Positions 3,702 through 41,207 of a DNA stretch of 64,000 nt are shown piece after piece. The stretch's first letter is position 1. Every line of letters begins with the position of its first letter. The notes under the pieces are model-generated. The model was given only the letters and a program-made list of their open reading frames with translations. It had not been told where the DNA came from and ran no database searches. Made by a program: the position numbers and the translations under genes. The stretch is from Arcobacter sp. EP1. GTDB taxonomy: Bacteria; Campylobacterota; Campylobacteria; Campylobacterales; Arcobacteraceae. The stretch covers positions 305,951-369,950 of the forward strand of contig LPNY01000042.1 of assembly GCA_001655195.1 (NCBI GenBank), written 5' to 3'.

Positions 3702-3755
3702 ATTATGACATAAATGTATATTAAATTAACTATTATGTTGTATATAAAATATACA
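3702..3755 (-). promoter_or_regulatory. nirB promoter with nitrate-regulon palindrome
   Basis: The perfect palindrome TGTATATAAAATATACA is at 3739-3755, centre 3747. On the minus strand a -10-like CATAAT occupies 3707-3702, so its near edge is exactly 40 bp from the palindrome centre. The predicted start is near 3695, which puts the operator near -52. The same arrangement is seen before nirA-like, narK and nrtA. Binding protein unknown. Confidence 0.75.
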
Positions 3756-3789
3756 GAAAAGGGTGATTTCTAAATTGTTAGTGATGAAG

Positions 3790-3813
3790 AGTAAAAGCCC
3801 TTAGGCTTTTACT
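3790..3813 (-). terminator. Hairpin at the end of the nitrate reductase gene
   Basis: Perfect 10-bp inverted repeat AGTAAAAGCC / GGCTTTTACT with a 4-base loop that overlaps the stop codon of the nitrate reductase gene. There is no long U-run on the minus strand, so termination may be partial. It separates that operon from nirBD, which has its own promoter. Confidence 0.5.
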
Positions 3814-6110
3814 TTGTGAGTTAGTTCAGATGTAAATTGCAGTTCATTTTTAATGACAATATGTTCTAATTCCCCTGCAACTTGAACCTCTTTTAGTCTG
3901 ATTCCTTGGGGTACCTTTTGACTATGCAGTTGTATTGCACACTGTTTGAAGTTTGGCTCAAAAGATTGTGGATCAAAATCTGCAATGGTAATAGCATTAA
4001 TGAGTTGTTCATTAAAGTGAAAAGGAACAAACACGGTACCTTGTCGTATGGTTTGAGACTCTTTTACAATGATATCATCTACACGACCTCGACGTGAACT
4101 AATACTGAGTCTTTGACCACTTGTTACTTCTAATTCTTTGGCATCTTCTGGATTGATTTCAATCCACGCTTCTGGAGCCAAATCATTTAAAATTGAGATG
4201 GTTTTCGTTTTTGTTCGTGTATGCCACTGTTCAACAGTTCGTCCTGTATTTAAGATTAATGGAAAGGCGGTACTTTCATTTTCAACCATAGGAAGCCAAT
4301 CTAAAGCTAAAAGATTTGCTTTTCCTGTAGGAGTATTACATGGCATGGTTTCACTATAAAGCCTGCTTGTCCCTTGAGGGTTTTTTTCATTACATGGCCA
4401 CTGAATACCACCAAGCTTTTCAATTTTTTCATAGGTCATACCTGTGTAATCACACACTCTTCCTGCACTTAACTTTTTCCATTCATTAAATGCATCAATT
4501 GGTTTGTTAAAGTTACTAAAGAGTTTTTCATGAACCCCATCAAAATATTTTGAGAATTCAACCACAATATCAAAATCACTTTTTGTAATACCCAAAGGTT
4601 TAACCGCTTGTTTTGCATAGTTACACCGCCGTTCGCTATTTGTATAGGTTCCCTCTTTTTCACTCCATGTTGCTGCACTAAAGACTACATCTGCTTCAAG
4701 TGCCGTTTCACTTTTAAAGGCATCTTGTACAACTAAAATATCAAGTTTTTTTAATGCTTTTCTTAATCTATTTTGATCAGGAAATGAAACCAAAGGATTG
4801 GTTGCCACTAACCATAAGGCTTTGATTTCACCTCTTTCAATGGCATCAATAATTTGTGGATATGAGTAACCACGTTTTGTTGGTACATCTTCTAGGGGAA
4901 GATTGACAATATTAGCATACTCTTTTCTATCAGCTTCACTAGCAAAGTTTCTGTATCCTGGAATAGAAGAGGTAAATCCTGTTTCACGAGTTCCCATGGC
5001 ATTACATTGACCTGTGATTGATAATGCTGTTGCCCCTTTTCTTCCTAAATTTCCAGTAATGAGTGCTAAATTACAAATAGCGCTTACGGTGTCTGTACCA
5101 ATTGAACTTTGGTTAACTCCCATTGTCCAAGCACTCATGGCAGCACTTGATTTTGCATAAACACGGGCAAGTTCATATAAATCTTTTACTTCAATACCAG
5201 TAATCTCTGCCACATGTTGTGGTGCATAGTTATCCATGATATGTTTTCTAAAGACTTTAAATCCTGTTGTTCTGTCTTTAATGAACTTTTCATTTTCCCA
5301 ACCTTGCTCTAATATAATGTAACAAAGTCCATTCATCAGGGCTAAATCACTTCGTGGTTTTAAAGGAACATAAATATCTGCCATATTAGCTGTTTTAGAA
5401 AATCGTGGGTCAACCACAATAATGGTTGGTTTTTTACCCGTTATTTTTTCATTTTTGGCAATATGCAGTTTTAAAATAGGATGGTTATCAGCAATATTTG
5501 CACCAATTAGCATGATGGTATCCGCGTAAGAGAAATCTTCATAACATCCAACGGGACCATCACTTCCAAAGGTTTGTTTATATCCCATAACAGCACTAGC
5601 CATACATAACGTGGTATTTCCACAGTAGTTATTAGTTTTTAGACCCATTTGAACAAACTTACCTAAGGTATAGAATTCTTCGGTTAAAAGTTGTCCCGTA
5701 GAAATACATGAGATGGCTTTGTTACCATACTCTTTTTGGATGCTTTTAAATTTGTCACTTACGGTTTTAAAAGCTTCACCCCAAGAAGTCTGTGTCAGTT
5801 CGCCACCTTTTTTAATATGAGGCGCTAAAAATCTATTCTCACTTTGTACCATCTCATGTTCACTCAATCCCTTAGGACAAAGTGTTCCGCAGTTTACGGG
5901 GTGTGCTGGGTCACCTTTTGTATAGGTTGGTTTACCGTTTTGAACACCAATATATAAACCACACCCTACGCCACAATAACCACAGGTTGATCGTACCCAT
6001 TTTGTTGGTGCTTTTTCTTTGGATACTTTTCCAAAGGTTGAATCTTCTTGTAAAGAGTATTTTTCCTCTTTAATATCAAATCCTATTAATTTTTTTATTT
6101 TTTTTATCAT
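3801..6110 (-). CDS. nasC: Cytoplasmic molybdopterin nitrate reductase, NasC/NarB type
   Basis: Catalytic subunit reducing nitrate to nitrite for assimilation. The 769-residue protein has the N-terminal 4Fe-4S motif C43-x2-C46-x3-C50-x27-C78, the likely Mo-ligand cysteine in TLCMASA, and the molybdopterin oxidoreductase and dinucleotide-binding domains to the C-terminus (QRLSISSRRG region). There is no twin-arginine signal, so it is cytoplasmic like NasC/NarB and unlike periplasmic NapA. It lacks the C-terminal BFD-like 2Fe-2S domain of some NasA proteins, so electrons must come from a partner. The start overlaps the stop of the fused Fe-S/membrane-anchor gene (ATGA-type overlap), which suggests they form a complex. 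The symbol is by family; narB or nasA are used for the same enzyme elsewhere. Confidence 0.9.
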   Translation of the reverse strand: MIKKIKKLIGFDIKEEKYSLQEDSTFGKVSKEKAPTKWVRSTCGYCGVGCGLYIGVQNGKPTYTKGDPAHPVNCGTLCPKGLSEHEMVQSENRFLAPHIKKGGELTQTSWGEAFKTVSDKFKSIQKEYGNKAISCISTGQLLTEEFYTLGKFVQMGLKTNNYCGNTTLCMASAVMGYKQTFGSDGPVGCYEDFSYADTIMLIGANIADNHPILKLHIAKNEKITGKKPTIIVVDPRFSKTANMADIYVPLKPRSDLALMNGLCYIILEQGWENEKFIKDRTTGFKVFRKHIMDNYAPQHVAEITGIEVKDLYELARVYAKSSAAMSAWTMGVNQSSIGTDTVSAICNLALITGNLGRKGATALSITGQCNAMGTRETGFTSSIPGYRNFASEADRKEYANIVNLPLEDVPTKRGYSYPQIIDAIERGEIKALWLVATNPLVSFPDQNRLRKALKKLDILVVQDAFKSETALEADVVFSAATWSEKEGTYTNSERRCNYAKQAVKPLGITKSDFDIVVEFSKYFDGVHEKLFSNFNKPIDAFNEWKKLSAGRVCDYTGMTYEKIEKLGGIQWPCNEKNPQGTSRLYSETMPCNTPTGKANLLALDWLPMVENESTAFPLILNTGRTVEQWHTRTKTKTISILNDLAPEAWIEINPEDAKELEVTSGQRLSISSRRGRVDDIIVKESQTIRQGTVFVPFHFNEQLINAITIADFDPQSFEPNFKQCAIQLHSQKVPQGIRLKEVQVAGELEHIVIKNELQFTSELTHKVKA

Positions 6111-7732
6111 CGTTGGTTTCCTAAAAAGAAGTTTCCTGCTAAGCCTTGTGCTACGGCTGTTTTATAAAAAAGTGAACGTGCAATAATTTCACTGATAAAC
6201 GAAACGGCCAATGCAATAAGCAATAGATCAAAGGCGCTTTCATAACTAGCACTTGCAATTAAAAGCATTGATATAAGTGGTAAGAATAAGCTTCCAAAAA
6301 ACATGAAGGCAATTCGTACTAAATTGTGCACTTTAAAGGTTGTTTCATAAAGTGTTTTTGTTTTATTTAACTGATAAAAGTTTTCATGGGTTTCATCTAA
6401 AGTATCATAAAAACTTTTTTGCTCTTTACTATTAATAAATTGATAAATCCCTATAAATAATCCCAATGGAAGTACTACAGAGGCGCTTGTATAATCACCA
6501 TTAATTAGTAATAATAACGCAACAAGAAGTACACCAATATAACTAACACTAAAGAAGTTTTTAGTTGTTAGAATTTTGTTCCATGATGGACGGGCTTTAA
6601 TTCTATAAATCATTGATTGAGCATAAATACCATAAATACCAATGGCTAAGACACCAAGCTCTATGATTAAACGAAGTACTTGAGGAGCTTCTAGAAAAAA
6701 TAGTGCAATTACAAAGGTCATTCCACCTGTAAATAATCCAAGGGCCAATGCTTCTCGACTCAACCACGAGGTTTTTAAATTCTTCATGGCTGTATGGGCT
6801 AACATCGGTCTTCCTAAATGTAGCGCTGATAGAGGTAATCCAATAGCAGCAGGTAAGAAAATAGCAATCATCATCCATAAATTTGGTAAGGCTAAATTAA
6901 AACCTAAAAAGTTTGCAATCTCTCCTAAGGTAAGTGCAGCAAAACCTCCAAGTGAAATTTGTGTTAACACTGTCATAAATACCAAAGGCCACTCTGCATG
7001 ATTTGGTTTTACGATATGTTCATCTGCAGGAGTTAAGTTTTCATACTCTTCATTGAGGGTATATCGTGTGGTTGGTTTAGTAATATTGATATTTGGTAAA
7101 TGAGGGGCAACACCCTCTTTTGCTAATCCCTCTTCTAACCACTCTTTAGTATTGACAACTTCAATTTGAATGGCACCTGCAGGACAGGCTTGAACACAAG
7201 ATGGTGTTTCTCCCACATCGAGTTTCTCATGACACATATGACATTTGGTTACAATACCTCTGTCGTGATTAAATGTTGGTACTTCATAAGGACAGTTCCA
7301 TGTACAGTATTGGCACCCAATACAGGTTTCATCTTCATGGAATACAATACCATTTTCAAACTTGATATATGAATTAGTCGGACATCCTTTAAGACACTCT
7401 GGGTCAATACAATGATTACAACTCATAGAGTTAAAGTGGTGGCTTACTTTTGGAAAAATACCACTTTGCATCTCTCCTACACGGCGCCATTTCACATCGG
7501 CACTATTGTTGTTTTGTTCATTACAGGCAACTTCACAACAGTGACACCCAACACAAGCTGTTGCATCAAAATGAAATCGATATTGTTCACCCTCTTTTGG
7601 TTTTTCAATATCAATGGAATAGTTCCCACATTGCATACTGGTATTTGCTTTATGATTAATAAAACTCTCTAAAGGTGTTAATTCATCTTGAGTTTGAATA
7701 GTTGTTTCACTCTTAGTTTCAGTGTGACTCAT
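6107..7732 (-). CDS. Fused four-cluster ferredoxin and DmsC-type membrane anchor
   Basis: A single 541-residue chain joins a DmsB-like electron-transfer subunit to a DmsC-like anchor. Residues about 50-200 hold four 4Fe-4S cysteine groups (ACVGCHCCEVAC, SCNHCIDPECLKGC, TCIGCQYCTWNC, KCHMCHEKL with CVQAC). From about residue 245 there are eight predicted membrane segments, as in DmsC, a quinol-binding anchor. It is followed with a 4-base overlap by the nitrate reductase and preceded by the nirA-like gene with a 3-base gap. I infer that it passes electrons from membrane quinol to the cytoplasmic nitrate reductase. There is no Tat signal on either protein. DMSO reductase or a related enzyme is an alternative, but the surrounding genes are all nitrate genes. 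Confidence 0.85.
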   Translation of the reverse strand: MSHTETKSETTIQTQDELTPLESFINHKANTSMQCGNYSIDIEKPKEGEQYRFHFDATACVGCHCCEVACNEQNNNSADVKWRRVGEMQSGIFPKVSHHFNSMSCNHCIDPECLKGCPTNSYIKFENGIVFHEDETCIGCQYCTWNCPYEVPTFNHDRGIVTKCHMCHEKLDVGETPSCVQACPAGAIQIEVVNTKEWLEEGLAKEGVAPHLPNINITKPTTRYTLNEEYENLTPADEHIVKPNHAEWPLVFMTVLTQISLGGFAALTLGEIANFLGFNLALPNLWMMIAIFLPAAIGLPLSALHLGRPMLAHTAMKNLKTSWLSREALALGLFTGGMTFVIALFFLEAPQVLRLIIELGVLAIGIYGIYAQSMIYRIKARPSWNKILTTKNFFSVSYIGVLLVALLLLINGDYTSASVVLPLGLFIGIYQFINSKEQKSFYDTLDETHENFYQLNKTKTLYETTFKVHNLVRIAFMFFGSLFLPLISMLLIASASYESAFDLLLIALAVSFISEIIARSLFYKTAVAQGLAGNFFLGNQR

Positions 7733-7735
7733 ATC

Positions 7736-9325
7736 TTATGCTCCTATTCTTTCATACAATTCTTCTGTTGTAAACTTCGCTAACACACGGCTATCAAAGC
7801 TTTCAAAACTTTCATTGTTTATTTTTTCATTTTTATAGATAGTTAATAAGTTTTTAACAGCAACTTTGGCTTTTTCAAGACTTAACCCTTTATGTAACAG
7901 CCGTGCTTCTTGAACCTCTTTAGAGGCTTTTCCTCCAAGGAAAATTTTAACTCCTCCAATGGTAGTTCCTTCTTCATTTTTGATTTTACATCCTTCAAAA
8001 CCAATATCTGCAACACCATGAATCCCACACCCTTTAGGACAAGCTGACCAATACATTCGCACCTTACCATTACTCATTGGAACTTCTTCATTGAGGTAAT
8101 AGGCCATTTCTATAGCATCTGCTTTGTTTTCAATCACCCCAAAAGGACAGGTTTTAACTCCCGCACAGGCAATTTGGTTTGTAAAATAGATATTTTGAAA
8201 CTTTCCATACTTCTTATAAAGTGGAGAATTCTTTACATACGTCACATCTTCTTTGTCACAAATGATATAGAAGCTTTGTTCAACACTTAATCGAATCAAC
8301 CCTTTAGTATCTTCTGCTAAATATCCTGCTTCCATCATGGCAGTTCCCGTAAATATTCCTGAAGGAATTGGAAAATGTATGGCTTTTTTATTGTTTCTTA
8401 ACTCTATTGAATCTTCATTTGTAACAATGATATCTTCATTAACGAGTAACTCTCCACTACTATCAAGCGTCATATTTGCTTTTGTTTGGATGGCTAAAGC
8501 AAAGTGTTCAATTCCTACTTCTTGAATCAAAAAATGTAGGCGGTTTTTGTTTCTGTTATCTCTAAATCCATACTCTTTAAATAGATCAATAATGGCTTTA
8601 TATACCGTAGATACTTGTTCTTTTTTAATAAAAAGCCCTGAATCATAAGCTTGAATACCCACTTTACCTCCAAGATAGAGGTTAAATCCAATTGCATCAA
8701 ATTTTTTGGCTACGACAAAAGAACAATCTTGACCAAATACATTACAGTCATTAAAAGAGGTTCCTAAAACTGCGGTATTGAGTTTTCTAGGCATTACTCC
8801 AAAATACTCCTCTTTTTTAAAGAAAATGGCTTGTAATTCATCTATAATTGGTTTACAGGTAATATAGTTTTGTGCATAATGTCCATCAAAAGATGAGGTG
8901 ACAATATTTCTAAAGTTATCAATACCCGTTTGAAAGGTAGATAAACCTATATCTTCAATAGCTTTAATGACTTTATATAAATCTTTTTGTTTTAGAAATC
9001 GAAACTCAATTTGCTGTCGAGTTGTAATATCAATATAGTTATCCCCATACTGTTTCGCAATAGAACCTAATTCAATAGCTTGGTGAAATTCCAATTGACC
9101 AGCAGGGATACGTACTCGTAACATGAAATTATCTTTACCTTTATTGTATAACCCAAAACATTTTAAGAGATATTTTTCATGATTTTGAGTAATAGACTCA
9201 TAAGGCAAGTGACAAAAATCTTTAAATTGATTGTAAAACTCTAGTGGTGTTTGTAGTGCTTTTAACTTTTCAAGTTTATTGATTTTTTTAGTATGTTTAT
9301 TGAGTGCGTCTTGTAAAATTGTCAT
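7736..9325 (-). CDS. nirA: Siroheme nitrite reductase, ferredoxin-type (NirA-like)
   Basis: 529-residue nitrite/sulfite reductase-family protein. It contains two ferredoxin-like half-domains and two siroheme/4Fe-4S segments. The cluster ligands are C-x5-C in CAGVKTC (near residue 387) and C-x3-C in CPKGC (near 431). It has no FAD or NADH domain, so it should take electrons from ferredoxin or another small carrier. It is the first gene of the operon nirA-(Fe-S/anchor)-nasC and has its own palindromic operator. Assignment to nitrite rather than sulfite rests on context, because no cys genes are near. It duplicates the reaction of NirBD, which is unusual. Confidence 0.82.
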   Translation of the reverse strand: MTILQDALNKHTKKINKLEKLKALQTPLEFYNQFKDFCHLPYESITQNHEKYLLKCFGLYNKGKDNFMLRVRIPAGQLEFHQAIELGSIAKQYGDNYIDITTRQQIEFRFLKQKDLYKVIKAIEDIGLSTFQTGIDNFRNIVTSSFDGHYAQNYITCKPIIDELQAIFFKKEEYFGVMPRKLNTAVLGTSFNDCNVFGQDCSFVVAKKFDAIGFNLYLGGKVGIQAYDSGLFIKKEQVSTVYKAIIDLFKEYGFRDNRNKNRLHFLIQEVGIEHFALAIQTKANMTLDSSGELLVNEDIIVTNEDSIELRNNKKAIHFPIPSGIFTGTAMMEAGYLAEDTKGLIRLSVEQSFYIICDKEDVTYVKNSPLYKKYGKFQNIYFTNQIACAGVKTCPFGVIENKADAIEMAYYLNEEVPMSNGKVRMYWSACPKGCGIHGVADIGFEGCKIKNEEGTTIGGVKIFLGGKASKEVQEARLLHKGLSLEKAKVAVKNLLTIYKNEKINNESFESFDSRVLAKFTTEELYERIGA

Positions 9326-9351
9326 GATAAAACCCTTATTTTATATAAGAT

Positions 9352-9405
9352 ATTTTATCATTTAATAGACTTTTGATTTAAATTTTTTTGTATAAAAATT
9401 ATACA
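9352..9405 (-). promoter_or_regulatory. nirA-operon promoter with nitrate-regulon palindrome
   Basis: Perfect palindrome TGTATAAAAATTATACA at 9389-9405 (centre 9397), overlapping the stop codon of the upstream kinase gene. A -10-like TAAAAT lies on the minus strand at 9357-9352, exactly 40 bp from the centre. The half-site differs by one base (A for T at position 7) from the other three copies but keeps perfect symmetry, which supports it being a protein-binding site. Confidence 0.75.
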
Positions 9406-11033
9406 GAAAATCTTAAATATAAAAGAAAATTCAGAAGTAACATGACGTAGAAGCCATACTTGTAAAACTTAAGAGGGTCTCGTTTTAAAATAGGAGTGTT
9501 TTTATCAAAGTAAGGTTGTACTTTGGAAGAGTTTTCTAACTCATAACTCATAAATGAGTAGTTTTCATAACGTCGATTGGTATCTGTTGTAATAGCATGT
9601 AAAATAATACTCTCTAACCAGTGGGGAATATTGGGGTTTAGTTTTGTTGGACGTTTGGGTTGTTTAAAGGTGGGTGTTTGAAAAGGTTCAATTTCACCAT
9701 AAGGAAACTTACCGGTTAGGCTCTCATATAAGGTTACCCCAATAGCAAAGATTTCAGTTTTTTCATTAATAGGTGCTTGTTTAAATCGTTCGGGAGCTAA
9801 ATAAGAAGGTGTCCCTGCACGATTGTCAATTGAATAGACTTCTGTAATACTGCCAAAATCAATCACTTTAAAGATTTTTTTTCCATCTCGTTCTATAACA
9901 ATGATATTTTCAGGTTTTATATCACCATGGACTAAATCATATTTGATAAGATATTGACTCATATGTAATAGAGTTTTTCCTAGAGCTATAGATTCATCCA
10001 CTGAGAGTTTTCTTTTTTTCAGGTACTCTTTTAAGTTAATCCCTTGGATGTGACTCATAATATAGTAACGAGCAGTTCGTTTTTTTGGTACTGTTGATTT
10101 TGGGAAAAAGCCTGCCTTTAGTCGTTTTGCATTCCACACTTCTTTAACAAAAAGGTCAAGTATTTTGTCATCATTTTTGGCTTCTAATGGAGCAAACTTG
10201 ATGACATATTTGCTTCCTCTTTTTTCACATAACCAAGTACGGTCATTTTGAATGAGGGATTGCTGTAGCACATAACCATCAATTTCATCCCCTAAAACGA
10301 GTTTTTCGGGAATATCCAAAGGAAGTTTTTTTAGTTGTGATATCACATCGATATCATCAACCTCTAAAACAACTGCTGTTGTATCATCGGGCAAGTTATC
10401 TTCAACAAGTTTGCTGGCTTTTTTGACAATATGGTAGGCTCCATTGACTAAATGACGACTAAGCATATCTTCACTCATGAGTGAATACAAACCATCACTA
10501 CATAATAGAAGTTTATCTTCTTTTTGGATTTTGTTTTCAAAATAGAAGATCTCTACCTCTTTATCAATACCAACAGCATCTGTTAGAACATTTTCGTATC
10601 CTGCATCATCCATACTATGATCAAATGATAGCTGTGTTAAAATATCTTGCCTTAGAAGATAAATTCTACTATCCCCTACATTCGCCCCATAAAGGCGCTC
10701 CCCTTGAATAACAACAACAGTAACCGTTGTCACTAGTTCAGGACGTTCATAATCGCTCATTGATTGAGTATATAAGATTTGGTTGATTGAAGTAATGAAG
10801 CTTTTGATTGATTTTTCAATACTCCAAGCTTTGGGTCTATTTTTGAAATTTGTAATTAAGTGTTTGGTAACACGTTGGGCTGCAAGTGCCCCCTCTTGAG
10901 CACTTCCTACTCCATCACATACCACAGCAATAACTAAATCATCTAAAACTTTTATATCATAAAAGTCATCACCTTTAAGTTCTTGACGTTTTGCTAATGA
11001 GAATCCTGAAGTTTTTATGCTGTTTTTTGCCAT
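9399..11033 (-). CDS. PP2C phosphatase-Ser/Thr kinase fusion with C-terminal anchor
   Basis: About 544 residues. The N-terminal 230 or so form a PP2C-type phosphatase (DDFYDIKV, VVCDGVGSAQEGALAA, GDSRIYLLR, LCSDGLYSLM, DDTTAVVLEV). Residues about 255-515 form a Hanks-type kinase: KYVIKF supplies the ATP lysine, HGDIKPEN the catalytic loop (HGD in place of HRD), IDFGS the DFG motif and APE the activation-segment end. A single hydrophobic segment at the extreme C-terminus (YVMLLLNFLLYL) would tether it to the inner membrane. The ATG at 11033 is preferred over an in-frame TTG at 11045. It lies between narK and nirA. I infer post-translational control of nitrate uptake or reduction; targets are unknown. 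Confidence 0.88.
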   Translation of the reverse strand: MAKNSIKTSGFSLAKRQELKGDDFYDIKVLDDLVIAVVCDGVGSAQEGALAAQRVTKHLITNFKNRPKAWSIEKSIKSFITSINQILYTQSMSDYERPELVTTVTVVVIQGERLYGANVGDSRIYLLRQDILTQLSFDHSMDDAGYENVLTDAVGIDKEVEIFYFENKIQKEDKLLLCSDGLYSLMSEDMLSRHLVNGAYHIVKKASKLVEDNLPDDTTAVVLEVDDIDVISQLKKLPLDIPEKLVLGDEIDGYVLQQSLIQNDRTWLCEKRGSKYVIKFAPLEAKNDDKILDLFVKEVWNAKRLKAGFFPKSTVPKKRTARYYIMSHIQGINLKEYLKKRKLSVDESIALGKTLLHMSQYLIKYDLVHGDIKPENIIVIERDGKKIFKVIDFGSITEVYSIDNRAGTPSYLAPERFKQAPINEKTEIFAIGVTLYESLTGKFPYGEIEPFQTPTFKQPKRPTKLNPNIPHWLESIILHAITTDTNRRYENYSFMSYELENSSKVQPYFDKNTPILKRDPLKFYKYGFYVMLLLNFLLYLRFSV

Positions 11034-11050
11034 ATTATTACCCAATTTTA

Positions 11051-11088
11051 TTTATGTTAAAACATTTCTTGAAACATTTTAACATAAA
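11051..11088 (-). repeat. 12-bp inverted repeat before the kinase gene
   Basis: TTTATGTTAAAA at 11051-11062 is perfectly repeated in inverse at 11077-11088 (TTTTAACATAAA), with a 14-base loop. It sits in the short gap between narK and the phosphatase-kinase gene, directly next to the narK terminator. It could be a second terminator, an operator or a leader hairpin of the kinase gene. Confidence 0.6.
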
Positions 11089-11089
11089 T

Positions 11090-11116
11090 AAAAAAAGAGG
11101 GGATACCTCTTTTTTT
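11090..11116 (-). terminator. narK terminator
   Basis: Perfect 11-bp stem AAAAAAAGAGG / CCTCTTTTTTT with 5-base loop GGATA. Read on the minus strand it ends in a run of seven T and starts right at the narK stop codon. It is a classic Rho-independent terminator, so the kinase gene probably has its own promoter or depends on readthrough. Confidence 0.85.
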
Positions 11117-11117
11117 A

Positions 11118-12398
11118 TTAAATTTTTCCACCAGCTTGAACACCCCATGTTGTTCGCCATCTAGTTTTAACTAAACTAATACCTGAAATTGCTACAAAAA
11201 CAACAACTGCAAATATTAAGAATCCAGCTGTGTATCCATCAAAGGCACCTTTTGACCATCCTAGAGTTTTGATTAGTGCTGTACCACCAAGACCACCAGC
11301 ACATCCAACAATACCAGTCATAATTCCGATATCTTTTCCAAATCGTTGTGGTACGAGTTGGAAAACTGCTCCATTTGCCATACCAAGGTTTGCCATTACT
11401 AAGAAAAGTAGAACAATTGCAAACATAAATGGTAAGTCAAGTGTTGCATTGATAACTGCTAAAAGTGCTACGGTTCCGTAGAAGAAGTAAAGTGATCTAA
11501 CTCCACCAATTTTATCTGCTATTGCTCCTCCAACTGGTCTAAGAACTGCACCTGCAAAAATACATAGTGCTCCAAAATAACCTGCCATAACTTTCACATT
11601 CTCTTCTGCTAAAAAGTCAAGACCAAAAGCAAGCATCTCAGGTTGGTACGTATTCATTAAATATACTTTCATGTATCCTGCAAAACCAACAAACCCACCA
11701 AACGAAACTGCATAAAATAGACAAAACCACCATGTATCTTTGTCTTTTAATAGTTTTCCGTAATCTCTAAGTTTCTTAGGATTCTTTTTATAAACTGACT
11801 CTGGTGCATCTTTTGCTAAGAAAAGGTAGGCAATAAATACTACAATGGCCATTGCTGCACCGATTCCAAATACTGAAGCCCATCCCCAAAGCTCTGCAAT
11901 TTTTGGCGCGAATAAGAAATCAATAACAACACCAATGTTACCAGCACCTGCAATACCTAAAACTACACCTTGAAGTTTTGGTGGGTACCATTGTCCTGCT
12001 TGAGGAAGTGCTACTGCAAATGATGCTCCCGCAAAACCAAGACCTAGTGCAACAATTAAAAGTTGATTATAGGTAATTGTATCTGATTGAAAGTATGCTA
12101 ATAAAAGCGCTGCAATAACAATTGCTTGTGCAATTAAAGCTGTAAGTTTCGCTCCAATCTTATCAACACCAAATCCTAAAACGATTCGTAAAATTGCCCC
12201 TGAAAGAATAGGAAGTGAAAGTAAAGTTGCTTTTTCCCCTGCTGTTATAATGTGTCCGTTTAATGCTAATGCTTCTGCAATTTCCGTACTTAATGGTCCA
12301 AGCATTGTCCAAACCATAAAACTCATGTCAAAATATAAAAAAGCCATGAACAACGTAGTTCCGTGTCCTTGCCCTTTTAAATCTTTTAATCCTGCCAT
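11118..12398 (-). CDS. narK: Nitrate/nitrite MFS transporter
   Basis: 426-residue major facilitator with about 12 membrane segments, of the nitrate/nitrite porter family (NarK/NasA). Family-type stretches are visible: FDMSFMVWTMLGPL in TM1, GAGNIGVVIDFL mid-protein and GIVGCAGGLGG near the end, the last resembling the glycine-rich nitrate signature. Length and missing fusion fit a NarK1-like single domain. It is divergent from nrtA across a 278-bp region with two copies of the palindromic operator. Having both this porter and the ABC importer NrtABC suggests low- and high-affinity uptake, or nitrate and nitrite respectively. Confidence 0.9.
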   Translation of the reverse strand: MAGLKDLKGQGHGTTLFMAFLYFDMSFMVWTMLGPLSTEIAEALALNGHIITAGEKATLLSLPILSGAILRIVLGFGVDKIGAKLTALIAQAIVIAALLLAYFQSDTITYNQLLIVALGLGFAGASFAVALPQAGQWYPPKLQGVVLGIAGAGNIGVVIDFLFAPKIAELWGWASVFGIGAAMAIVVFIAYLFLAKDAPESVYKKNPKKLRDYGKLLKDKDTWWFCLFYAVSFGGFVGFAGYMKVYLMNTYQPEMLAFGLDFLAEENVKVMAGYFGALCIFAGAVLRPVGGAIADKIGGVRSLYFFYGTVALLAVINATLDLPFMFAIVLLFLVMANLGMANGAVFQLVPQRFGKDIGIMTGIVGCAGGLGGTALIKTLGWSKGAFDGYTAGFLIFAVVVFVAISGISLVKTRWRTTWGVQAGGKI

Positions 12399-12427
12399 CT
12401 TTTTTCCTTAAATAATAATTATGATGA

Positions 12428-12481
12428 AGTATACTCTTAAGAAGTAATAAATGGTCAGAATATTTGTATATAAAATATACA
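12428..12481 (-). promoter_or_regulatory. narK promoter with nitrate-regulon palindrome
   Basis: Palindrome TGTATATAAAATATACA at 12465-12481 (centre 12473). A -10-like TATACT is on the minus strand at 12433-12428, exactly 40 bp from the centre. The operator would sit near -52, one helical turn upstream of the usual class II activator position. Confidence 0.75.
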
Positions 12482-12581
12482 ATCATAAAATTGTCATTAA
12501 AAGCAATAAATCTGAGAATTTAAGTTTTATCTGCCTATATAGTGTATACAAAACAATAATAGCTCAACAAGAGACTAATAT

Positions 12582-12635
12582 TGTATATTTTATATACAAT
12601 TTATTGTTTGTTTTTTGTTCAACATGGAATATAAT
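12582..12635 (+). promoter_or_regulatory. nrtA promoter with nitrate-regulon palindrome
   Basis: Palindrome TGTATATTTTATATACA at 12582-12598 (centre 12590), the reverse complement of the narK-side copy. A -10 TATAAT is at 12630-12635, exactly 40 bp from the centre. A shorter GTGTATAC at 12543-12550 lies between the two sites but lacks the 3-base spacer. Confidence 0.78.
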
Positions 12636-12676: not shown

Positions 12677-14053
12677 ATGTTAAAGAAAATGTTAGGTTTA
12701 GGTTTAGGTATTTCTGTTATTACTAGTACACTTATGGCAGCACCTGAAAAAACAAAATTAAAAATTGGATTTATTGCATTGACTGACTGTGCCCCTTTAG
12801 TTATTGCAAAAGAGAAGGGCTTTTTTAAAGCAGAAGGACTTGATGTACATGTAGCAAAAGAGGGTGGCGGATGGCCAGGAATTCAACAAAAAGTAATCTC
12901 TGGTGAGTATGACTTTTCTCATGCTCTTGCAGGTATGCCAATTGCTGCAACATTAGGAATCAATGGTAATGCACATTTACAAGCGCTTTTATCATTAGAT
13001 TTTAATGGTAATGCAATTACCTATGGTAATAATATTATTGCTGAAATGGAAAAATATGGTTTAGATAAAACACAGCGACCTGTATCAGCAGACTCACTGA
13101 AAAAATTCATTGATGCAAAACGTGCTAAAGAAGGTAATAACTACCAACCACTTAACTTTGGTATGGTTCACCCTGTATCAACACACAACTACGAGTTACG
13201 ATACTGGATGTCTGCAAGTGGTATCAAACCCGACCAAGATTGTACGATTAAGCCATTTCCACCACCAACAATGCCTAGTAACCTAATTGCTGGAAATATT
13301 GAAGGCTATTGTGTAGGAGAGCCATGGAATTCACGAATTGTATTAAAAGGAAAAGGTTCCGCTCTTGTAACTAACTATGATATTTGGAACAACAATCCTG
13401 AAAAAGTACTTCAAGCACGAGCTGATTTTGTAAAAAAATATCCAGAAACGACTAAAGCAGTTATGCGAGCAGTAATTAAAGCCCAAAAATGGCTTGACAC
13501 ATCATGGGAAAATAGAGAAGAAGCGATTAAATACTTAGCAAAGAAAAACTATGTTAAAGCACCAAAAAAAGTTTTACAAAAATCTATGTCAGGAACGTTT
13601 CTTTATAACAAAGGTGTAGACTCTTCTAATCCAATGTTTAATGTATTTGCAAATAACTATGCATCTTATCCATACTATTCACATGGAATGTGGTTTATTA
13701 CACAAATGTACCGATGGGGACAATTGGATAAACCAGTTAATATGAAAGAGGTTATTGAAAAAGTTTACCGACCTGATCTTTTTGCTGAAGTTGCAAAAGA
13801 AGTGGACTATAAATTACCTCCAAGTCCGTGGAAAAAAGATGGTGTTGATGAATATAACAAATTCTTAGATGGAAAAGTTTGGGATCCAAATAAAGCCGTT
13901 GATTATATCTTTGACTTTAAAGTTCAAAACTCTTTGGTCTCAAAAGAAGCATTGGCAAAAGCTAATAATTGGTCTGTTGAGACAAAACAACCAGGATATG
14001 TATGTCACTATGGACCTGCAGGTTGTGCTGATCCAAAATACATTACAAAATAG
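12677..14053 (+). CDS. nrtA: ABC nitrate-binding periplasmic protein
   Basis: 458-residue substrate-binding protein of the NrtA/CmpA family. It has a Sec signal peptide (lysines, then GLGLGISVITSTLMA, cleaved before APEK) and no lipobox cysteine, so it should be soluble in the periplasm or held otherwise. Family stretches: KIGFIALTDCAPLVIAKEKG, GGWPGIQQKV and CVGEPWNSR. The mature part starts with the nitrate-binding lobe. It is first in nrtABC, with AAGGAG shortly before the ATG. A strong hairpin follows it, so it is probably made in excess of the permease and ATPase. Bicarbonate (CmpA) or cyanate are alternative ligands, but the neighbours favour nitrate. Confidence 0.9.
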   Translation: MLKKMLGLGLGISVITSTLMAAPEKTKLKIGFIALTDCAPLVIAKEKGFFKAEGLDVHVAKEGGGWPGIQQKVISGEYDFSHALAGMPIAATLGINGNAHLQALLSLDFNGNAITYGNNIIAEMEKYGLDKTQRPVSADSLKKFIDAKRAKEGNNYQPLNFGMVHPVSTHNYELRYWMSASGIKPDQDCTIKPFPPPTMPSNLIAGNIEGYCVGEPWNSRIVLKGKGSALVTNYDIWNNNPEKVLQARADFVKKYPETTKAVMRAVIKAQKWLDTSWENREEAIKYLAKKNYVKAPKKVLQKSMSGTFLYNKGVDSSNPMFNVFANNYASYPYYSHGMWFITQMYRWGQLDKPVNMKEVIEKVYRPDLFAEVAKEVDYKLPPSPWKKDGVDEYNKFLDGKVWDPNKAVDYIFDFKVQNSLVSKEALAKANNWSVETKQPGYVCHYGPAGCADPKYITK

Positions 14054-14290: not shown

Positions 14291-15100
14291 ATGAACAGTG
14301 AATTATTAAAGAAGATATTTTTACCATTGATTGTATTGGTGATAATTATTCAAGTATGGAGTGGCGTTGCTTCAATTGTTGATGACTTTCCAACACCAAG
14401 TGATACATATGTGTATGCGTTTGGAGGTGAAACAGCAGATGGGGATGAAATAGAGGGTGTTTTAGCAGATCCATTTTACATTGAAAACCAAGACGATAAG
14501 GGAATTTTCTGGCAGATTTTAGCTTCTTTACAAAGAGTATTTGGTGGTTTTGCTTTGGCTGTATTAGTGGGAGTTCCTATTGGACTTATTATTGGAATGA
14601 GTAAAACGATGCAATATGCATTAGATCCTTTTATTCAAATCTTTAAGCCAGTGTCACCATTAGCATGGCTTCCTTTGTTACTATTTGTATTTCAAGATAT
14701 TAATACAACGGCTATTTCAACCATATTTATTACTTCAATTTGGCCAATTATTATTAATACGGCTCTTGGGGTTAAAAATGTAAATGAGGACTATTTAAAT
14801 GTTGCAAAGGTATTAAAGTTTACTGCTTTAGAGAAAGTCTTTCAAATAATTTTACCCGTAGCTGTTCCATATATTTTTACGGGAATGCGATTATCTTTAG
14901 GTATTGCATGGCTTGTAATTGTTGCAGCAGAAATGTTAACAGGTGGTATTGGTATAGGATTTTGGATTTGGGATGAGTACAACAACTTGTCGTACCATAA
15001 TATTATTATCGGGATTATCTTAGTTGGTGTAATCGGATTTATTTTAGATGTTGTTATGGGTAAAGTAGCAGATTTCTTTGATTATAGAAAAAAGATGTAA
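14291..15100 (+). CDS. nrtB: ABC nitrate transporter permease
   Basis: 269-residue inner-membrane permease of the NrtB/SsuC/TauC family with about six membrane segments. The stretch IFKPVSPLAWLPLLLF and the EAA-type cytoplasmic loop around KFTALEKVFQIILP are visible. It pairs with NrtA and with the ATPase 10 bases downstream. A region of about 30 residues after TM1 (PTPSDTYVYAFGGETADG) is a periplasmic insertion also typical of NrtB. Confidence 0.9.
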   Translation: MNSELLKKIFLPLIVLVIIIQVWSGVASIVDDFPTPSDTYVYAFGGETADGDEIEGVLADPFYIENQDDKGIFWQILASLQRVFGGFALAVLVGVPIGLIIGMSKTMQYALDPFIQIFKPVSPLAWLPLLLFVFQDINTTAISTIFITSIWPIIINTALGVKNVNEDYLNVAKVLKFTALEKVFQIILPVAVPYIFTGMRLSLGIAWLVIVAAEMLTGGIGIGFWIWDEYNNLSYHNIIIGIILVGVIGFILDVVMGKVADFFDYRKKM

Positions 15101-15110
15101 GGGTTAGAAA

Positions 15111-15911
15111 ATGACAAATGATAAAAAGTTTTTACAATTAGAAAATATTCATAAAACATTTCCATTACCAGGTGGGAAAGAGTATAAAGCCGTTGTTGAT
15201 GTTAATGTTGATATTTCAAAAAATGAGATTATTTCAATTATTGGGCATAGTGGTTGTGGTAAAAGTACCTTGCTTAATATGATTGCAGGGCTTGATGCCC
15301 AAACACAAGGTAATATTATTTTAAATAATAAAGAGGTTAAAGGACCAGGACCTGAACGTGCAGTGGTTTTCCAAAACCATTCACTTCTTCCTTGGTTAAC
15401 AGTTTATCAAAATATTGAGATGGCAGTTAAAAAAGTGATGCCAGAACTGGATTCAAAAGAGCTAAAAGAACGAGTTGAACGATTTGTTTCTATGGTAAAC
15501 CTTGACCATGCAAAAGATAAATACCCAGGGGAAATTTCAGGGGGTATGAAACAGCGAGTGGGAATTGCTAGAGCATTATCAATTAAACCTGATGTGTTAC
15601 TCATGGATGAGCCTTTTGGTGCATTGGATTCTCTAACGCGGGCTAACTTACAAGAGCATCTTATGCGAATTCAGCAAAAGGTTGAAAATACTGTTATTAT
15701 CATTACTCATGATATTGATGAAGCAGTACTTTTAAGTGATAAAGTAATTATGATGACCAATGGTCCTAAAGCAACAATTGGAGAAATCTTAGAAGTAAAT
15801 TTATCAAGACCACGAAACAGAGTAGAACTTCAACATGACCCCGAATATATTAGGTGTCGGGAATCAATTCTTAGTTTCCTTTATGAAAAATTCGCAAAAG
15901 ATGATGAATAG
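15111..15911 (+). CDS. nrtC: ABC nitrate transporter ATP-binding protein
   Basis: 266-residue ABC ATPase. Walker A is GHSGCGKST, the signature is SGGMKQR, Walker B is VLLMDEPFGALD, and the switch histidine is in ITHDIDEA. It is of NrtD/SsuB length and lacks the extra NrtA-like domain that cyanobacterial NrtC carries. The symbol is therefore by position; nrtD would fit equally. It drives nitrate import through NrtB. Confidence 0.88.
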   Translation: MTNDKKFLQLENIHKTFPLPGGKEYKAVVDVNVDISKNEIISIIGHSGCGKSTLLNMIAGLDAQTQGNIILNNKEVKGPGPERAVVFQNHSLLPWLTVYQNIEMAVKKVMPELDSKELKERVERFVSMVNLDHAKDKYPGEISGGMKQRVGIARALSIKPDVLLMDEPFGALDSLTRANLQEHLMRIQQKVENTVIIITHDIDEAVLLSDKVIMMTNGPKATIGEILEVNLSRPRNRVELQHDPEYIRCRESILSFLYEKFAKDDE

Positions 15912-40565: not shown

Positions 40566-41207
40566 ATGAAAAGTAAATTAAAAAAGGACAAAAACAAAAC
40601 CATGACCGAACAGGTCTACGAAAAACTTGAAGATTTGATTGTTTTTTGTGAGATTGAGCCCGGAACGGTTTTAACTGAAGCTGAGATTTCAGAGATGGTA
40701 GGAGCAGGACGAACACCTGTACGAGAAGCCCTACGACTCTTAGCCAATGAGTCATTGGTAAGTATCTCTCGAATTGGAATCTTGATACCTGAGATGAGCG
40801 GTAGTACGCAACTAAAACTTTTAGAAGTACGACGTGCGATTTTACACCTGTGTGTTGATAAAGCTATTGATCGTTTAACAGAGTTAGATAAAAAATCGAT
40901 TCAAGAGTTACTTGATATTGTTGATGAGCAAGATGATGTAGAATTTTTATACTGGTTAAAACGGCGACACAAAGTATTAGCAAATTGTTCAAAGAATCCA
41001 TTTATTTATGAAGAGTTACGAAATGTCCAAGGACTCTCTCATCGTTTCTGGTACTTTTATGCTAAGAAAGAGGACCATAGCGATGGACAGCGACTCCATA
41101 AAGCAATATTAGAAGCTGTATTGATTCAAGATAAACAAAAAGCGAAAGAGACTGTAAATGAGCTACTTGATTACTTAGAAGAGTTCGTTCGTATCCATTC
41201 TATTTAA
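40566..41207 (+). CDS. GntR-family (FadR/FCD) transcriptional regulator
   Basis: 213 residues from the ATG at 40566, which has GGGAG eight bases upstream; an earlier in-frame ATG at 40551 has none. N-terminal winged helix (TMTEQVYEKLEDLI, LTEAEISEMVGAGRTPVREALRLLANESLV) is the GntR signature. The C-terminal helical FCD ligand-binding domain has the metal/ligand histidines in RRHKVLA and LHKAILEAV. It probably controls the TRAP-catabolic genes in response to the imported compound. Confidence 0.9.
   Translation: MKSKLKKDKNKTMTEQVYEKLEDLIVFCEIEPGTVLTEAEISEMVGAGRTPVREALRLLANESLVSISRIGILIPEMSGSTQLKLLEVRRAILHLCVDKAIDRLTELDKKSIQELLDIVDEQDDVEFLYWLKRRHKVLANCSKNPFIYEELRNVQGLSHRFWYFYAKKEDHSDGQRLHKAILEAVLIQDKQKAKETVNELLDYLEEFVRIHSI

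Follow-up and report, generated by a model that had tools for sequence, protein, structure and literature searches.

The nitrate and nitrite assimilation genes of Arcobacter sp. EP1 are preceded by four 17-bp palindromes, which lie within a 64-kb stretch of DNA (the window, meaning the whole stretch analysed). With high confidence, these palindromes can be regarded as nitrogen-limitation operators of the Arcobacteraceae, which belong to a system found in much of the Campylobacterales and are bound by a 250-aa protein composed of an AAA+ domain and a Fis-type helix-turn-helix (HTH) domain. This protein is the best candidate because it co-occurs with the operator, because its recognition helix co-varies with the operator sequence, and because its own gene bears sites of the matching type. 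For nitrogen control in environmental Epsilonproteobacteria and their nitrogen fixers, the present analysis thus names a candidate gene and supplies an operator, a predicted regulon and a specificity prediction that concerns a single residue.

Palindromes in the nitrate island

The palindromes of the window have the form TGTATA-N5-TATACA, with 7-bp arms flanking a 3-bp centre in each case, and are listed in Table 1 together with the genes behind them. The main features given in the preliminary description were confirmed: all four are perfect (0 mismatches), the copy of the nirA operon carries a compensating change, i.e. a symmetric difference from the other copies at positions 7/11, and the centre is exactly 40 bp away from a correctly oriented -10-like hexamer, which is TAAAAT for the nirA operon. 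The distance of 40 bp corresponds to 39 bases between the centre base of the palindrome and the first base of the hexamer. The absence of a regulator gene from the nitrate island was likewise borne out. A pattern scan of the 64 kb allowing up to 2 mismatches yielded, beyond the four palindromes, an unrelated match at 40937 as the sole further one; shuffled sequences gave a mean of 1.07 matches under the same conditions, and 0 of 100 shuffles reached 5.

Table 1 Palindromes and associated genes in the 64-kb window of Arcobacter sp. EP1
Feature	Positions	Strand	Remarks
nirB(D) operator TGTATATAAAATATACA	3739..3755	-	CATAAT begins 40 bp from palindrome centre
Operator of the nirA / ferredoxin-DmsC-like / molybdopterin nitrate reductase operon TGTATAAAAATTATACA	9389..9405	-	
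narK operator TGTATATAAAATATACA	12465..12481	-	-10 = TATACT
nrtA operator TGTATATTTTATATACA	12582..12598	+	-10 = TATAAT
nirB, 821 aa	1211..3676	-	followed by nirD-like ORF 898-1257
Molybdopterin assimilatory nitrate reductase, 769 aa	3801..6110	-	target gene
4Fe-4S / DmsC-like subunit, 541 aa	6107..7732	-	target gene
nirA-like sirohaem reductase, 529 aa	7736..9325	-	target gene
PP2C phosphatase-Ser/Thr protein kinase fusion	9399..11045	-	between narK and nirA operon
narK, 426 aa, NarK family	11118..12398	-	target gene
nrtA-like substrate-binding protein	12677..14053	+	followed by permease (14291-15100) and ATPase (15111-15911) genes

The palindrome of the nirA operon covers the last codon and the stop codon of the PP2C-kinase gene. 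In another genome (G070), PP2C-type genes resembling the one of the window adjoin nirB or another copy of the motif (L043, L045).

The operator in the genome and in related species

Five perfect copies of the palindrome are present in the 3.0-Mb genome of Arcobacter sp. EP1, compared with none of the reversed control pattern, and chance palindromes are ruled out by these controls. The fifth copy precedes amtB; the earlier statement that the palindromes occur only before nirB, nirA, narK and nrtA therefore holds within the window and fails genome-wide. A wide scattering of copies over unrelated regions, which had been named as evidence against an operator, was not seen when the genome was scanned. 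Copies with one or two mismatches are mostly background on the genome scale (57 versus 60 for the reversed control) and were accepted only in the case of a conserved gene and position. This applies to a copy with one mismatch between glnK and the second amtB gene (amtB2) and to a copy with two mismatches about 67 bp before glnA, which is found at the same distance in relatives. The other two 1-mismatch copies of the genome are located inside ORFs and were set aside.

For the relatives, gene names were assigned by reading the translations, and the family designates the Arcobacteraceae as judged from named relatives. Within it, many genera have the perfect TGTATA motif before glnA; further targets include amtB, glnK/amtB2, gltB, nirB, nitrate reductase, nrtA, narK, focA, eutB, urtA and nifA. 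A common operator is thus found before glnA, amtB, glnK and the assimilation genes, which is what characterizes a nitrogen-control regulon, and the proposal of a real operator with one regulator for the whole gene set is supported. As judged from these positions, the palindrome is a putative operator of general nitrogen control rather than a nitrate-specific one. It also occurs before nifA-like genes in two family genomes (L041, L054, L055) and before nifE in genome G001 (L099), which suggests that nitrogen fixation may be controlled by the same operator. In genome G070, several of the 15 copies of the motif precede genes with an unclear role in nitrogen metabolism.

Promoter geometry

The spacing observed in the window holds far beyond it: of 53 sites from family genomes and one f2 genome, 44 have a -10-like hexamer at a distance of 39 or 40 bases, measured from the centre, whereas other pairs of neighbouring offsets yield 7 sites with a hexamer on average and 20 at most. 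The activator-like position near -52 that had been proposed is supported by this distribution. Many target promoters have an extended -10, and an obvious -35 region is missing. In other families a second class of sites exists, with the hexamer at 29 and hence the centre one helical turn closer, near -42, and a few sites are not followed by a good -10 at 39/40, such as that of amtB2 in Arcobacter sp. EP1. A search for sigma54-type -24/-12 promoters gave GG-N10-GC matches at 4 of the 53 sites, all of which represent a ribosome-binding site plus start codon.

A candidate regulator of the NtrC superfamily

The gene of the candidate regulator (G000:C175:198853-199602) is located on another contig of Arcobacter sp. 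EP1 between the amtB/glnK genes and glnD, and in the family it is linked to amtB-glnK/glnB and usually also to glnD. The 250-aa product consists of a reduced NtrC-type AAA+ domain, with which it starts directly, a receiver domain being absent, and a Fis-type C-terminal HTH. It was the only match over the cut-off for HTH_8 in a scan of the genome, and its matches to Sigma54_activat were sub-threshold to borderline. Most members of this protein group retain Walker A, no GAFTGA-like motif was found in 56 alignment rows, and the stretch linking the Walker A and PPL-ReED blocks is about 54 residues shorter than in NtrC1. An AlphaFold2 model (mean pLDDT 92) gave NtrX as the best Foldseek hit and a probability of 1.00 to NtrX, ZraR, PspF and NtrC1, with moderate TM-scores. 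If membership in the NtrC superfamily is based on the fold and the Fis-type HTH only, the protein belongs to it. None of the curated NCBIfam models covers it; the best one, ntrC, scores 38 bits (cut-off 559), and the TyrR model scores 27 bits (cut-off 576). The protein would thus be a variant within the superfamily, having an NtrC-like role and TyrR-like properties in parts but failing the tests that define NtrC. Since it contains neither a GAFTGA motif nor a receiver domain, it should not drive sigma54. Control by sigma54 and NtrC themselves is ruled out by these two absences and by the identity of the GG-N10-GC matches.

The distribution of the protein follows that of the operator. Among 104 family genomes, 77 possess both, 21 neither, 4 the protein only and 2 the motif only (Fisher 6e-16), and in genus g2 both are present in 17 and both absent in 14 genomes with no discordant case. 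In a set of 22 family genomes, the protein was found in all 13 with the motif and in one of the 9 without it (G187). The genomes having the protein and no perfect TGTATA site are G187, G286, G288 and G325; those having the motif with the protein not found, G277 and G285, are both drafts. Genomes without the regulator retain glnA (and also amtB in the two that were checked for it) but have no site there. Loss of the regulator gene together with the adjacent glnD and amtB could account for part of the co-occurrence.

Recognition helix and operator dialects

The sampled motif-bearing members of the family and two distant genomes, G011 and G041, share the recognition helix [LI]NR[IV]TLRKK, and genus g27 of family f18 has LNRATLTKK. 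TGTATA sites are present at glnA and/or amtB in G011 and the g27 genomes and at amtB in G041. In most other families the helix reads [LI]NRNTLRKK (N-type), and glnA and amtB are preceded there by TGATTA-N5-TAATCA with the same layout and spacing, close variants of the half-site being TGCTTA and TGGTTA; TGATTA sites are also found before glnK, narK and nirA. In 13 regulator-containing genomes of family f1, 70 TGTATA and 3 TGATTA sites were counted, versus 6 and 102, respectively, in 41 genomes of f16 and f20, and one of each in 50 regulator-free genomes. Families f18 and f6 hold both types of regulator, and the operator tracks the type of regulator, not the family. G187 has a threonine variant of the helix (LNRTTLRKK) and hybrid or near-sites.

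The regulator gene is itself immediately preceded by sites of the matching type in G011, G041, G018, G051, G187 and G224 (N-type); in G217 the distance is 82 bp. The tree of the regulator genes requires only four changes of the helix residue, and all non-N copies group together on it with modest support. On this tree the difference between N and non-N types can be a single change, so that the co-variation is strong in terms of sites and comprises few independent events. Altogether, the evidence favours an NtrC-superfamily protein with a Fis-type HTH over the Crp/Fnr, LysR and GntR families that had been suggested first.

Proposed mechanism and alternative explanations

In the proposed mechanism, a dimer of the 250-aa protein would bind TGTATA-N5-TATACA, a 6-N5-6 layout as in the NtrC site, and would be centred at -52, or one turn closer at -42, on one face of the helix. 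From there it would help the sigma70 polymerase at extended -10 promoters that have no obvious -35 region. Under nitrogen limitation, ammonium capture (glnA, amtB, glnK) would be switched on, as would the assimilation of nitrate and nitrite and, where present, the genes for urea and ethanolamine utilization and the nif genes; the regulator would in addition adjust the expression of its own gene. The likely signal is the status of the PII system (GlnK/GlnB and GlnD), because the regulator gene sits with glnK/glnB and glnD. The sequences themselves show the site, its spacing, the set of genes, the co-occurrence and the co-variation of specificity; that the protein binds the site, that it activates instead of repressing, and that PII controls it are what we infer. 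A more far-reaching version, which we put forward only tentatively, is that the Campylobacterales possess a broad, phosphorylation-free and sigma54-independent nitrogen master regulator of the NtrC superfamily, whose TGTATA and TGATTA dialects are set largely by one helix position and which reads PII by direct contact.

The same protein could instead act mainly as a repressor that is released under nitrogen limitation. Its own-gene sites, which are very near or across the start, would suit self-repression; at the target genes, however, the sites are fixed at -52 or -42 upstream of the -10 and cover neither the -10 nor the start, and the promoters have no obvious -35, so that we consider repression an unlikely main mode. 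A further, rather improbable alternative is a different operator-binding protein, for example from the LysR, Crp or GntR family, that was lost or retained alongside the AAA+/Fis protein. Co-occurrence by itself cannot tell apart genes that are lost together, but across families, and also inside f18 and f6, a different operator goes with a different recognition helix in the AAA+/Fis protein, whose gene bears sites of matching type and sits with amtB and glnD.

A regulator specific for nitrate, as initially proposed for the island, would agree with the sites of the window, which precede nitrate and nitrite genes only. An equally spaced copy of this site is, however, found before glnA and amtB here and in relatives, and before gltB, eutB, urtA and nif genes elsewhere, and glnK/amtB2 is preceded by the site as well; a nitrate-only regulon is thereby ruled out and such a regulator very improbable. 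A MerR protein similar to TnrA or GlnR was attractive by the shape of the box and the best family match, the TnrA box TGTNANAWWWTNTNACA (PMC4475385) being a 17-bp TGT...ACA inverted repeat, too, that controls nitrogen genes. Arcobacter sp. EP1 does encode a MerR protein of 101 aa, for which TnrA is the top curated match (L018:1426-1731, C24); MerR_1 is also matched by HspR and a DNA methyltransferase in this genome. The 101-aa protein is, however, present in only 5 of 249 genomes of the order, namely Arcobacter sp. EP1, two motif-free genomes of the family and two f20 genomes with one copy of the motif or none, and it is absent from motif-rich genomes; its relatives adjoin isochorismatase and YceI-type genes. 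This distribution rules the protein out, and its binding to the operator would be exceedingly improbable.

Relation to known systems

NtrC recognizes the site TGCACC-N5-GGTGCA, and the candidate system resembles that of NtrC in its core regulon, the Fis-type HTH, the AAA+ fold and a 17-bp inverted repeat of the 6-N5-6 type. It differs in the half-site, in the sigma70-like promoter with a site at -52 or -42, and in the protein, which lacks the receiver domain, GAFTGA and the roughly 54 residues mentioned above. The core of the NtrC regulon comprises glnA, amtB, glnBK, nas, nir, narK and nrt (PMC5343134). The system suggests how an NtrC-like factor can shed sigma54 and phosphorylation and yet retain its job and the geometry of its sites.

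The TnrA/GlnR system of Bacillus shares with the candidate operator the 17-bp TGT...ACA repeat and the control of nitrogen genes, and its activated sites are located near -50; its regulators belong to the MerR family, however, and the MerR protein of Arcobacter sp. EP1 does not track the motif. The TyrR box, TGTAAA-N6-TTTACA, differs in spacing by one base. Like the candidate, TyrR, DhaR and HupR are AAA+/Fis proteins without a proper GAFTGA motif, and they use sigma70 (PMC3162934), which the architecture and promoter type of the candidate would fit as well; their sensory domains and the pathways they control are different. For Campylobacter and other Epsilonproteobacteria, a published account names FlgR as the sole sigma54 activator (PMC3162934), a protein of the same superfamily and bacterial class. 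In contrast to the candidate, it has a receiver domain and the sigma54 contact, and it controls flagella. Epsilonproteobacteria were omitted from a survey of proteobacterial regulons, as the target regulators including NtrC have no orthologues there (PMC5343134). In the open-access literature we found no nitrogen regulator described for Arcobacter, Sulfurimonas or the Campylobacterota, and no paper on the TGTATA-N5-TATACA operator or the 250-aa protein. The pairs of regulator and operator dialects provide natural material for a protein-DNA recognition code.

Gene neighbourhood of the regulator

In many Arcobacteraceae, a gene for a 288-aa membrane protein (L016:12951-13817 on C175 in Arcobacter sp. 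EP1), which has a weak match to a Cache domain and no NCBIfam match, is located between amtB and the regulator gene, sometimes with a palindrome of its own (L078:4707). This Cache-like protein could provide a second input. In G043 (L202:5407-6837), the regulator gene adjoins, next to amtB and glnB, that of a protein of 228 aa whose start may be PAS-like and which is a possible alternative sensor partner. The N-type copies examined outside the Arcobacteraceae are located in a slyD-fabD neighbourhood and not beside nitrogen genes, which may leave room for other roles of the N-type copies there. A conserved arrangement slyD-regulator-fabD-mtn-ttcA, mostly with tolB-pal upstream, contains the N-type relative in Sulfurimonas, Sulfuricurvum and Sulfurospirillum, at a large distance from nitrogen genes (L180, L150, L160, L172 and L187, around 10001).
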